NCBI GenBank assembly: GCA_004028765.1
Contig: SAIX01000066.1
Location: 1-64,000, forward strand
Length of the DNA: 64,000 nt
From: Chitinophagaceae bacterium
Lineage (GTDB): Bacteria > Bacteroidota > Bacteroidia > Chitinophagales > Chitinophagaceae
Direction of reading: 5' to 3'
Numbering within the stretch: the first letter of the stretch is position 1; each line of letters starts with the position of its first letter. Shown here in pieces: positions 10,922 to 57,544 of the stretch. Made by a program: the position numbers and the translations under genes. The notes beneath the pieces were generated by a model. The model saw only the letters and a program-made list of their open reading frames with translations, did not search any database and was not told where the DNA came from.

Positions 10922-11007
10922 AGTCTGGAATCAGGAGTTAGGAGTTTGGAGTCAGAAAAACATGATCACCCCCTAACTCCTGACTCTTAACTCTCAACTC
11001 CTAACTA
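10922..11007. repeat. Heptad palindrome, AGT/ACT-core family, between parA and parB
   Basis: AGT at 10922, (AAT 10929), 10936, 10943, 10950; ACT at 10976, 10983, 10990, 10997, 11004. Confidence 0.92.
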
Positions 11008-16155: not shown

Positions 16156-16980
16156 ATGCTCCCTTCTTTCCTCTCCCGTCTTTTCAAAAACCAATCCTAC
16201 AATCCCGATCATTTTTTCCTGATTGCAGGGCCTTGTGTAGTGGAAACCGAAGAGCTGGTGATGGAGGTTGCCGATAAAGTTTCTGCTATCTGTAAAAGAC
16301 TGGAGATACCGTATGTTTTTAAAGCCAGCTACCGCAAAGCCAACCGTACCAGTGCAAATTCATTTACGGGCATCGGTGACGACAACGGATTATCGCTTAT
16401 CAAAAAAGTAGGCGATACTTTTCAGCTTCCCACTACTTCTGATATCCATGCACATGAAGAAGCTGCGATGGCCGCGCCTTTTATTGATATCCTGCAGATA
16501 CCCGCTTTTCTCTGCCGCCAGACCGATCTGCTTATCGCAGCAGCAGAAACGGGAAAAATCGTGAATGTAAAAAAAGGCCAGTTTCTCAGCGGGCCTTCCA
16601 TGAAGTTTGCAGCAGATAAGATCCGCAACGCGGGAAATGACCAGGTTATCCTTACTGAACGCGGCACTACATTTGGCTATCAGGATCTCGTGGTGGATTA
16701 CCGCAACATACCCTGGATGCAGGAACATGGGGCGCCTGTTGTGATGGACTGTACACATGCCCTGCAGCAACCCAATCAAACCAGCGGCGTAACAGGCGGT
16801 AACCCGCAACTGATCGGAACCATTGCCAAAGCCGCCATTGCAACCGGGGCCGATGGATTATTTATCGAAACACATCCCAATCCCGCTGTAGCCAAAAGCG
16901 ACGGGGCCAATATGCTCAAACTTGACCTGCTCGAAGGATTACTCGAAAAACTGGTGAAACTCAGGAAAGCGGCTATATGA
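16156..16980 (+). CDS. kdsA: 3-deoxy-8-phosphooctulonate synthase
   Basis: FFLIAGPCVVETEELVMEVADKV...FKASYRKANRTS...TERGTTFGYQDLVVDYRNIPWM. Confidence 0.96.
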   Translation: MLPSFLSRLFKNQSYNPDHFFLIAGPCVVETEELVMEVADKVSAICKRLEIPYVFKASYRKANRTSANSFTGIGDDNGLSLIKKVGDTFQLPTTSDIHAHEEAAMAAPFIDILQIPAFLCRQTDLLIAAAETGKIVNVKKGQFLSGPSMKFAADKIRNAGNDQVILTERGTTFGYQDLVVDYRNIPWMQEHGAPVVMDCTHALQQPNQTSGVTGGNPQLIGTIAKAAIATGADGLFIETHPNPAVAKSDGANMLKLDLLEGLLEKLVKLRKAAI

Positions 16981-17059
16981 GTTAAAAGTGAGGAGTTAAT
17001 AGTTAAAAGTGATCCTTTACTTGTTGGACCTACTATTAACTTTTAACTATCAACTTTAA
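16980..17059. repeat. Heptad palindrome, AGT/ACT-core family
   Basis: AGT at 16980, 16987, 16994, 17001, 17008; ACT at 17032, 17039, 17046, 17053. Confidence 0.92.
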
Positions 17060-35552: not shown

Positions 35553-35642
35553 GATTGCCTGATTAATGAATTATGCATTAGCGGATTAACGGATTGATAA
35601 TTTTTAATTCCACAATCCGTTAATTCGCTAATTCGCTTATCC
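35553..35642. repeat. Octad palindrome, ATT/AAT-core
   Basis: ATT at 35554, 35562, 35570, then 35577, 35585, 35593; right AATCCGTT|AATTCGCT|AATTCGCT|TATCC from 35614. Confidence 0.87.
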
Positions 35643-35649
35643 ACCATCC

Positions 35650-40594: not shown

Positions 40595-40654
40595 ATGGTG
40601 AATGGTGAACAGACAATAACGTAGCAATTCACCATTGCCCATTCACCATTCACG
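40595..40654. repeat. Heptad palindrome ATGGTGA / ATTCACC
   Basis: ATGGTGA x2 from 40595; ATTCACC|ATTGCCC|ATTCACC|ATTCACG from 40627. Confidence 0.9.
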
Positions 40655-40666
40655 AATACCACTGCC

Positions 40667-45872: not shown

Positions 45873-45938
45873 GAAAAATTAAAAAGGCCAGCATCCGTGT
45901 TTAGGCATTTTTAATTTTTAATTTTTAATTTTTAATTA
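45873..45938. repeat. Heptad element with perfect (ATTTTTA)x4
   Basis: ATTTTTA x4 at 45907-45934; left GAAAAAT|TAAAAAG at 45873-45886. Confidence 0.85.
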
Positions 45939-45954
45939 CTGCTCCTTGGCAGAG

Positions 45955-54305: not shown

Positions 54306-54480
54306 GTTTAGTGGTTTGCTTGTTTATTGGTTTATTGGTGGCTACTCTATCGGGTATCGCAAGCAGAAGCAGGTACTATCTTCGTAAATTATACACCTAC
54401 AAATAATAAACAGAGCCATAGTTAACAGGACTAAGAACCAAGAAACCAAGAAACCAATAAACAAATCAACCAATCAAACC
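54306..54480. repeat. Octad palindrome GTTTATTG / AAACCAAG with a longer loop
   Basis: GTTT at 54306, 54314, 54322, 54330; AACC/AACA at 54436, 54444, 54452, 54460, 54468. Confidence 0.9.
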
Positions 54481-55235: not shown

Positions 55236-56411
55236 TCAGTATGCATATTTTACTTCTCCAAAAGAACCTTGCAGCAGCAAGGAAGGCGTCGCTGCCGATT
55301 CCACCCTTCCTACAATTTTTGCTTCGATACCCAATGCCGTGGAGGTCTGAATCATTTTTTCAGCGGTTGCTTCATCCGTAAACGCTTCCAGCCGGTGGCC
55401 CATATTAAACACCTGGTACATTTCGCGATAATCGGCGCCTGAATTCTGGCGGATCAGATCGAACACGGGTGGTATTTCGAACAGGTTGTCTTTGATCACC
55501 GCAAACGGATGCGGCAGGTATTTCATGCACTTAGTTTGTCCGCCGCCGCTGCAGTGGATCAATCCATGAATGTTTTCGAAATGATCGGTGAGCAATTGTT
55601 TCACCAGCGGTGCATACGTGCGTGTGGGCGAAAGCAGCAATTTCCCGACAGGGATCGCGTCATTGCCGATCTTGATCGTATCGGTCATTTTATTCTTCCC
55701 GATATAAACAACCGCATCTGAAAGTCCGGGTTCAAAAGTTTCGGGGTATTCTCCGGCGTAGTATTTTTCCAGTACGTCGTGGCGCGCACTTGTAAGCCCG
55801 TTGCTTCCCAGTCCGCTGTTATATTCATTTTCATAGACTGCTTTCCCTGCACTTGCAAAACCAACGATCACATCACCTGCCTGTATTTTATCGTTAGTGA
55901 TAAGTTTATTTTTAGGCCAGCGTGCCGTCATCGTGCCGTTTACGGCGATGGTGCGTACCACATCGCCCACATCGGCTGTTTCGCCACCGAGATAATGGAT
56001 ATGGACCCCATAAGAACGCAGTTGATCGAAGAATTCCTGTGTGCCATTGATAATAGCCTGTAAAACTTCGCCGGGGATCCGGGTTTTATTTCTATCGATG
56101 GTGGAAGAAAATAACAGGTTATCGGTAACGCCCACACAAAGCAGGTCGTCGAGGTTCATCGCAACGGCATCCTGCGCAATACCGGCCCAAACCGAAACAT
56201 CACCGGTTTCTTTCCAGTACAGGTAAGCGAGAATACTTTTGGTGCCAGCGCCATCGGCATGCATGATATTAACCCAGTTATCATCTCCGGATAAAAAATC
56301 GGCATATATCTTACAGAATGCATGGGGATAGAGGCCCTGGTCCAGTTTCTGGATGGCTGCATGCACTTCTTCTTTTTGAGCCGAAACACCGCGCTTTGCG
56401 TATAAAGACAT
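55236..56411 (-). CDS. AIR synthase related protein / phosphoribosylformylglycinamidine cyclo-ligase-like
   Basis: MSLYAKRGVSAQKEEVHAAI...HADGAGTKSILAYLYWKETGDVSVWAGIAQDAVAMNLDDLLCVGVTDNLLFSSTIDRNKTRIPGEV. Start corrected to ATG 56411. Confidence 0.88.
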   Translation of the reverse strand: MSLYAKRGVSAQKEEVHAAIQKLDQGLYPHAFCKIYADFLSGDDNWVNIMHADGAGTKSILAYLYWKETGDVSVWAGIAQDAVAMNLDDLLCVGVTDNLLFSSTIDRNKTRIPGEVLQAIINGTQEFFDQLRSYGVHIHYLGGETADVGDVVRTIAVNGTMTARWPKNKLITNDKIQAGDVIVGFASAGKAVYENEYNSGLGSNGLTSARHDVLEKYYAGEYPETFEPGLSDAVVYIGKNKMTDTIKIGNDAIPVGKLLLSPTRTYAPLVKQLLTDHFENIHGLIHCSGGGQTKCMKYLPHPFAVIKDNLFEIPPVFDLIRQNSGADYREMYQVFNMGHRLEAFTDEATAEKMIQTSTALGIEAKIVGRVESAATPSLLLQGSFGEVKYAY

Positions 56412-56472
56412 CTGATTTTTTTGAGATCCGTAATTGTACCCTGAAATGCCGCAAAGATAAGGGGGTTTGGGT

Positions 56473-56559
56473 AGTGAAGAGTTAGGAGTTAGGAGTCTGG
56501 AATTTCTCCAATCCACTCCCAACTCCTAACTCCAAACTCCAGACTCCAGACTCCTAACT
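56473..56559. repeat. Heptad palindrome, AGT/ACT-core family
   Basis: AGT at 56473, 56480, 56487, 56494, (AAT 56501); ACT at 56515, 56522, 56529, 56536, 56543, 56550, 56557. Confidence 0.94.
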
Positions 56560-56574
56560 TATCCCCCCTTCCCT

Positions 56575-56582
56575 TACTTTTG
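56575..56582 (+). promoter_or_regulatory. Bacteroidota -7 box TACTTTTG upstream of ribF
   Basis: TACTTTTG 9 nt before ATG 56591; directly downstream of a heptad palindrome. Confidence 0.5.
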
Positions 56583-56590
56583 CGTTCATT

Positions 56591-57544
56591 ATGAAAGTTC
56601 ATCGGGAATTGGCGGGGGCTTTGCCTGGATTCAGGAATGCGGTGGTAACCATCGGAACATTTGATGGTGTGCATCTCGGGCACAGGAAGATTATCGGCCA
56701 CCTGAAAGCGGAAGCTGCCCGCATCGGCGGCGAAACCGTGATCATTACCTTTCATCCGCATCCGCGAAAAGTGGTTTCATCCGTTCCGGGTGATGTGAAA
56801 CTGTTAAGCACACTCGATGAAAAAACCGGGTTGTTATCCGCCGCCGGCATCGATCACCTCGTAATTGTTCCCTTCGATCATCGCTTTTCCAACCAAACCG
56901 CCGAACAGTATGTAAAGGATTTCCTTTACCACGATTTCAAACCACATACCGTGATCATTGGGTATGACCACCGTTTTGGAAAAGGAAGAGAAGGCGATTA
57001 TCATTTGTTAAAGTCTTATGGTGCTGAACTGGGTTTTGAAGTAAAAGAGATCCCCGAACAATTACTGCAGGAAGCCGTTGTAAGCTCCACAAGGATCAGA
57101 AAAGCGGTAAGTGAAAACAGGATCGATGAAGCGAATGCATTGCTGGGCAGGCCTTATTCTTTTGAAGGAACGGTGATCGAAGGAAATAAACTGGGGCGCA
57201 CCATCGGTTACCCCACGGCCAATCTCCACATCGGCAGTGAAGAAAAGCTGGTACCCGGTAATGGTGTATATGCTGTTACAGTGCGTATTGAAAATGAAAA
57301 TGCAGAAGAGATTGAAAAAAATTATGAGGGGATGATGAATATCGGCGTAAGGCCAACGGTGGACGGGAAGAAAAGAGTGATTGAAGTAAATATTTTTGAT
57401 TTTGACAAAGACATATACGGCAAAACATTACAGGTGAACCTGCATCATTACCTGCGTGGTGAAGTAAAATTCAACGGGCTCGAAGAATTAAAGGCACAAT
57501 TACAGAAAGATGCCATGGCTGCGAAAGCCTCATTGAAAGATTAG
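56591..57544 (+). CDS. ribF: Bifunctional riboflavin kinase/FAD synthetase
   Basis: VVTIGTFDGVHLGHRKIIGHLKAEA...STRIRKAVSENRIDEANALLGRPYSFEGTVIEGNKLGRTIGYPTANL. Confidence 0.96.
   Translation: MKVHRELAGALPGFRNAVVTIGTFDGVHLGHRKIIGHLKAEAARIGGETVIITFHPHPRKVVSSVPGDVKLLSTLDEKTGLLSAAGIDHLVIVPFDHRFSNQTAEQYVKDFLYHDFKPHTVIIGYDHRFGKGREGDYHLLKSYGAELGFEVKEIPEQLLQEAVVSSTRIRKAVSENRIDEANALLGRPYSFEGTVIEGNKLGRTIGYPTANLHIGSEEKLVPGNGVYAVTVRIENENAEEIEKNYEGMMNIGVRPTVDGKKRVIEVNIFDFDKDIYGKTLQVNLHHYLRGEVKFNGLEELKAQLQKDAMAAKASLKD

Follow-up and report, generated by a model that had tools for sequence, protein, structure and literature searches.

The inverted heptad array at positions 56473-56559 is best read as belonging to a family of such arrays dispersed through the genome of its host, a Chitinophagaceae bacterium that comparison with relatives places close to Sediminibacterium. 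The family would be a self-amplifying repeat that is tolerated in unconstrained sequence; we put the probability of this reading at about 0.6. An operator role for the array in the purM-ribF gap, where it lies, is unsupported. The window (the whole stretch of DNA that was analyzed, 64 kb in length) belongs to a host genome of 3.7 Mb in 140 contigs, referred to below as G000.

The element consists of two arms of 7-nt units and a loop:

56473..56501, plus strand: left arm, units AGTGAAG, AGTTAGG, AGTTAGG and AGTCTGG, then a degenerate AAT; its partner is the outer right arm
56502..56514, no strand: loop separating the two arms, without similarity to the loops of other copies in an all-against-all BLAST
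56515..56559, minus strand: right arm, read on the minus strand as AGTTAGG, AGTCTGG, AGTCTGG, AGTTTGG, AGTTAGG, AGTTGGG and AGT

The original prediction counted four or five heptads on the left and seven phased heptads on the right, and the positions agree with it. On the left, AGT stands in phase at 56473, 56480, 56487, and 56494, and the fifth unit, at 56501, is degenerate (AAT). On the right, ACT stands at 56515, 56522, 56529, 56536, 56543, 56550, and 56557, the arm ending at 56559. The longest in-phase AGT/ACT run was 7 units in the real sequence vs only 3 in 200 dinucleotide-preserving shuffles of the whole 64-kb window. Pairing of the arms gave a z-score of -5.3 as RNA and of -4.4 as single-stranded DNA. 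The heptad hairpin is real and well above chance. It is the largest AGT-heptad palindrome, as had been proposed, within the window but not genome-wide, as contigs C118 and C121 of G000 hold GGAGTTA arrays of at least 14 units. Units of the purM-ribF copy have GG, with TTGGGAG as the sole exception; a GGG in every unit, from which a three-tier G-quadruplex could form, is thus lacking.

The array lies between two outward-facing predicted promoters, as follows:

55236..56411, minus strand (start at 56411): purM-like AIR synthase gene (Pfam PF00586, PF02769)
56452..56459, minus strand: predicted purM -7 box TATCTTTG, a TANNTT(T/C)G box present in 55 of 57 orthologous gaps
56460..56574, no strand: spacer of 115 nt between the -7 boxes, mostly taken up by the array; 9-116 nt in relatives
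56575..56582, plus strand: predicted ribF -7 box TACTTTTG, present in 55 of 57 orthologous gaps
56591..57544, plus strand: ribF, bifunctional FAD synthetase/riboflavin kinase (Pfam PF06574, PF01687)

The Pfam matches bear out the predicted pair of divergent flanking genes, an arrangement kept throughout the genus, and the ribF -7 box is indeed adjacent to the array, beginning 15 nt past its end. Both boxes are of the Bacteroidota type, TANNTT(T/C)G, and they are kept together in 54 of 57 distinct orthologous purM-ribF gaps (each singly in 55); their function is predicted from this conservation. The distance between them ranges from 9 to 116 nt across the 57 gaps. No upstream site is conserved in these gaps, and the spacer appears to be unconstrained in both length and sequence. 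The absence of a visible TTG -33 element for ribF, to which the original prediction drew attention, is true here but not special. Only 1 of 55 orthologous ribF promoters has such an element, so its absence is a rule of the family and not an effect of the array, which as its cause is ruled out by the other 54.

The gap being divergent, the element cannot be a 3' terminator for either gene, as had been stated. An intrinsic terminator was rejected as its identity: there is no GC-rich hairpin with a T run 3' of a gene, and no U-tract, intrinsic terminator, or sigma-70 promoter was predicted at the array. A conserved RNA family was rejected as well, an Rfam scan of the window having matched tRNA only. 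The array is predicted to lie outside both the purM and the ribF transcripts. Both predicted start sites face away from it, so it is unlikely to act at the RNA level for either gene.

No array was found in the purM-ribF gap of G073, G070, or G010, which are among the closest relatives of G000. The spacer of G033 contains a different inverted heptad array, with the word GTCTATG. Arrays with an 8-nt unit occur in the gaps of four other loci: an AATT-type array in L225, an array upstream of ribF in L229 (13 GGGTGATC units counted, assembly gap included), and arrays adjoining the purM box in L230 and L232. Arrays have thus arisen in this gap repeatedly, with unrelated words. For a MITE, one would look for terminal inverted repeats with a target-site duplication, but the gaps of relatives are too diverged for a duplication to be read.

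These data bear on whether the phased AGT heptads are the binding site of a protein that regulates the purM and ribF promoters or keeps them apart, which we consider very unlikely. Such a protein would fit the fixed AGT and four variable positions of each heptad, the location of the copy exactly between two -7 boxes, and the presence of a heptad array, albeit with an unrelated word, in the G033 spacer. It does not fit a copy that is lineage-specific and missing from the closest relatives, words that differ between species at one site, or flanking genes of family members that have no common theme; moreover, the 9-nt spacer in 16 relatives implies that no upstream site is required. The regulatory or protein-binding site implied by the original prediction thus finds no support: a TTG -33 element is missing from nearly all orthologous ribF promoters, the spacer length is free, the closest relatives lack the array, and others have unrelated ones. 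The heptad family is spread over hundreds of places, including in-frame locations inside genes, and so implies no gene-specific role.

Exact matches to GGAGTNNGGAGTNNGGAGT number 51 in G000, and there are none to the reversed pattern; a looser pattern has 371 matches vs 85 for its reverse. When periods 4-15 are compared in unbiased stretches of G000, the one that stands out is 7. A period-7 array was present in 10 of 92 G000 gaps of 40-500 nt and in 0 of 83 gaps of G017 and G061. The unit is a 7-nt word made of a fixed AGT and four variable bases (TAGG, TAAA, CTGG, CAGG, TTGG, GGTG, and others), the conservation of AGT being partly built into the detection, which found arrays by AGT. Many AGT arrays have a reverse-complement run 10-55 nt downstream. 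The polarity of such pairs is invariant, AGT followed by ACT in 17 of 17 cases and the opposite order in none. Two other members of the family are found in the window:

10922..11006, no strand: parA-parB element, AGT4>ACT5, filling the parA-parB gap, ~45.5 kb away
16980..17055, no strand: third element, AGT5>ACT4, with AT-rich words, between a kdsA-like gene and a convergent gene

The first is the element said to share a word family with the purM-ribF copy from 45 kb away, and it does. Two arms of the same copy have more words in common than two arms taken from different copies (p<0.001), and they match in the best register (p=0.0015). Strict outer-register pairing of same-copy arms was not significant (p=0.075), and maintenance of an exact palindrome by such pairing was rejected. 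Word sharing with a best-register but no outer-register match is what gain and loss of whole heptads would produce.

Related repeats were seen alongside the AGT family. A dispersed composite repeat of 150-200 bp combines ACTCACCACT heptads, a TTCACCACAGAGACACAGAG-like stretch, GGTTAAA units, and AACTTTTAACTCC heptads; it is found at L078:16583-16805, L076:5428-5596, and L069:5222-5430, and also in L091, L082, and L097. Further period-7 stretches occur at 40624-40660 and 45902-45945 of the window, with the words CCATTCA and AATTTTT. Period-8 arrays are present at 54311-54480 (inverted) and 35612-35644 of the window, in L229, and in the kdsA gaps of G070 and G073; from their heptad-like placements, the unit is not strictly seven.

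A mobile palindromic repeat (of the REP, REPIN, MITE, or Rickettsia type) moved by a transposase is a highly improbable source of the family, even though palindromic copies are dispersed, some are inserted in frame in genes, as in Rickettsia, the purM-ribF copy is lineage-specific, and G000 has one Y1 transposase gene:

L104, contig C3:8212-8556 of G000: single Y1 (RAYT-like) transposase gene, adjoining REP-like palindromes GGCGTAGCCTCG and AACGGATTTTAATCTGTTG

The palindromes that flank this gene are ordinary REP-like ones and not heptads, and a RAYT-driven REP was rejected for this reason. G027 has heptad arrays and no Y1 match, and relatives carry other words at the same site. An all-against-all BLAST of 41 stretches found only heptad similarity and the separate composite repeat, with no shared ends or loops, and a mobile element with conserved ends was rejected. 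Near a Y1 transposase gene in another genome, G036, locus L106 has CCATCGC units followed by GGGCGAT/GAGCGAT units around TTTAAA. This inverted heptad array has the architecture of the G000 arrays and an unrelated sequence.

Contigs C118 and C121 (GGAGTTA; at least 14 units) and C89 and C102 (AGTTGTG) of G000 end inside perfect heptad arrays of ~14 units. Long arrays therefore probably break the assembly, and the longest copies would be unseen. Assembly is unreliable at such ends, but that the element is an artefact of assembly or contamination is scarcely credible: the purM-ribF copy is short, imperfect, and internal to a contig of 128,816 bases, and the order of the flanking genes is conserved across the genus.

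Arrays occupy places where the sequence is free. Some directly follow a stop codon or fill the stretch from a stop to the next -7 box; others are in promoter spacers or, in frame, in protein loops that vary. Of 27 single arms downstream of a stop codon, 16 start no more than 12 nt past it, and among 15 intergenic pairs, 9 have a stop within 5 nt. By gap class, 20 array sites are convergent, 31 tandem, and 9 divergent, where ~12, 31, and 16 are expected from the available bases. These placement counts come from a simple home-made gene finder. As some sites are clustered, the convergent excess and divergent deficit are only suggestive. In seven genomes, strong hairpins were present in 20 of 32 convergent gaps vs 2 of 37 divergent gaps. 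Their rarity in divergent gaps makes the purM-ribF location an unusual one for a hairpin.

This distribution raises the possibility, which we find doubtful, that the family consists of transcript-end hairpins, either bidirectional terminators or stabilizers of mRNA 3' ends, with the purM-ribF copy as a stray that would at most block antisense transcription or insulate the promoters. Arms that begin 0-12 nt past stop codons, the abundance of strong hairpins in convergent gaps, and the scarcity of divergent array sites are in its favor. So is the occurrence at some sites in relatives of a plain hairpin in place of the array, as at trxB-folB of G070 (z -6.2), and plain convergent-gap hairpins share the purine-first polarity (28:12). 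However, the purM-ribF copy has neither a U-tract nor a terminator prediction, other copies are present in divergent gaps and in coding sequence, and several array-free orthologous gaps (kdsA, era, and pgm of G033) are without any hairpin. Placement after stops is also favored by the arrays themselves, which contain TAA/TAG when read in sense.

Arrays inside genes are the main reason for ranking tolerance above function. In-frame arrays were found in lpxB and in genes for a polysaccharide deacetylase, an amidohydrolase, and an RluB-like protein, and one more at the purN junction:

L093:4192-4293, L097:4043-4073, L092:504-541, L096:5054-5084, and L094:4835-4914: arrays in or between conserved genes of G000

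In-frame heptads yield peptides such as LQTPNSKLQT. Alignment with relatives maps them to loops of variable length, and the corresponding loops of relatives often look heptad-made, with other words, which argues that arrays settle in any free sequence.

Arrays also recur at the same intergenic sites with different words. The orthologous gaps of purM-ribF and of 11 further G000 arrays, picked among clear arrays, were read in G073, G070, and G033. Arrays with a 7-nt period were present in 15 of 32 orthologous gaps vs base rates of 7-8%. The pooled binomial probability of 3e-8 is overstated, since a given site enters the count for more than one genome; when sites are counted instead, 8 of 12 show an array in one relative or more. 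In most cases the words are not the same. The parA-parB words are AGTTAGG in G000 and AGTAATG/AATTACT in G073 and G070, and those of rseP-ssrA (tmRNA) are AGT in G000 and AATT in G033 and G073. Six outgroup genomes had no array at the four gaps tested, which are often just 5-49 nt long there. A tree of PurM+RibF places G000 as the sister of a group made up of G070/G073 and G033/S. roseum. From the site sharing, the absence in the outgroup, and the tree, arrays would most simply have arisen before this split at several sites, with the words changing afterwards. Sharing above background could mean selection for a junction hairpin instead of tolerance.

The purM-ribF copy itself arose on the G000 lineage, in the free spacer between the two outward -7 boxes. 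On the reading of a tolerated self-amplifying repeat, arrays would gain and lose whole heptads when replication slips or copies a folded-back strand, and words would drift and move about within an array, perhaps also from one array to another, resulting in different words at one site in different species. Selection would mainly purge harmful placements, and hairpins at gene ends may act as, or have replaced, transcript-end hairpins. At purM-ribF the array probably does nothing, or at most insulates the two promoters passively. Simple slippage does not predict the 17:0 polarity, and of all the observations this is the one that slippage alone accounts for least. The presence of this polarity in plain convergent-gap hairpins suggests a transcription-related constraint.

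A broader proposal is that fixed sites (gene ends, promoter spacers, and protein loops) keep arrays over the long term, with words exchanged by species, and that an active heptad-making process operates in Bacteroidota, Xanthomonas, Beggiatoaceae, and Cyanobacteria. We regard this proposal as rather unlikely; if true, the process would be a polymerase or another enzyme with a 7-nt step and purine-first polarity. A link of 7 nt to polymerase goes back to earlier work, as cited in PMC4679880 and PMC4692102. The value of the purM-ribF locus is corrective: the array is poor evidence for a special regulator of the two genes, and a missing -33 element is normal for ribF here. As a class of bacterial repeats, heptameric arrays still lack a good explanation; they came to notice in Xanthomonas, in cyanobacteria, and in giant sulfur bacteria on separate occasions. 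The Chitinophagaceae arrays, inverted and close to stop codons, with changing words at shared sites, offer a natural series for measuring the origin and turnover of such arrays.

Within the open-access literature, published full texts contained no bacterial match to the G000 words, and no description was found of word exchange at fixed sites. Several known systems share some of the features of the family. REP/REPIN-RAYT systems (PMC3733652, PMC3116915) are likewise dispersed extragenic palindromes, but heptads have no defined REP sequence of 20-40 nt, and the RAYT-like gene adjoins other palindromes. Rickettsia palindromic elements, ~150-bp families with a conserved peptide (reviewed in PMC10969869), also occur between genes and in frame within them; unlike these, heptad arrays have no fixed sequence, and their in-frame copies give differing peptides. 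The STRR of cyanobacteria, heptanucleotide repeats first reported in Calothrix according to the citation in PMC4692102, can be likened to the family as short tandem heptanucleotide repeats scattered between genes, on these features alone. The TAACTGA repeats of Beggiatoaceae, Cyanobacteria, and five Bacteroidetes (MacGregor 2015, PMC4679880) are intergenic tandem heptamers with 7-nt indel steps, some within ORFs; shorter gaps of relatives have no repeats, and contigs end in repeats. They are mostly direct, located just 5' of start codons, and built of one word, whereas the G000 arrays are inverted AGT-N4 pairs just 3' of stops, with a drifting vocabulary, and are not TAACTGA repeats. The latter represent the same class in other phyla and in some Bacteroidetes.

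The closest likeness is to the GGGAATC/GGGANTN repeats of Xanthomonas, described together with the GGGGA(C/T)T heptamers of Nostoc PCC 7120 (Rehm et al. 2015, PMC4692102). Xanthomonas genomes have ~185 heptad arrays each, many of them paired convergently; the arrays are under-represented between divergent genes, and most are flanked by the same genes in two species and vary in length and sequence. The G000 family has the same 7-nt unit with fixed and variable positions, pairs close arrays convergently only (17 AGT>ACT, 0 ACT>AGT), appears to avoid divergent gaps, and is dispersed, mostly intergenic, and near sense-strand stops, the purM-ribF copy in its divergent gap being placed otherwise. 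The differences are the AGT-N4 word, which in nearly every unit has no G run longer than GG and is thus not built for a three-tier G-quadruplex, the occurrence in Bacteroidota, the change of word between species at one site, and the in-frame copies in conserved genes. The GGG tract defines the GGGAATC word family and not the wider kind of paired heptad arrays. In these features the AGT-N4 arrays match the paired heptameric repeats of the Xanthomonas kind and belong with them, with words of their own and in another phylum.
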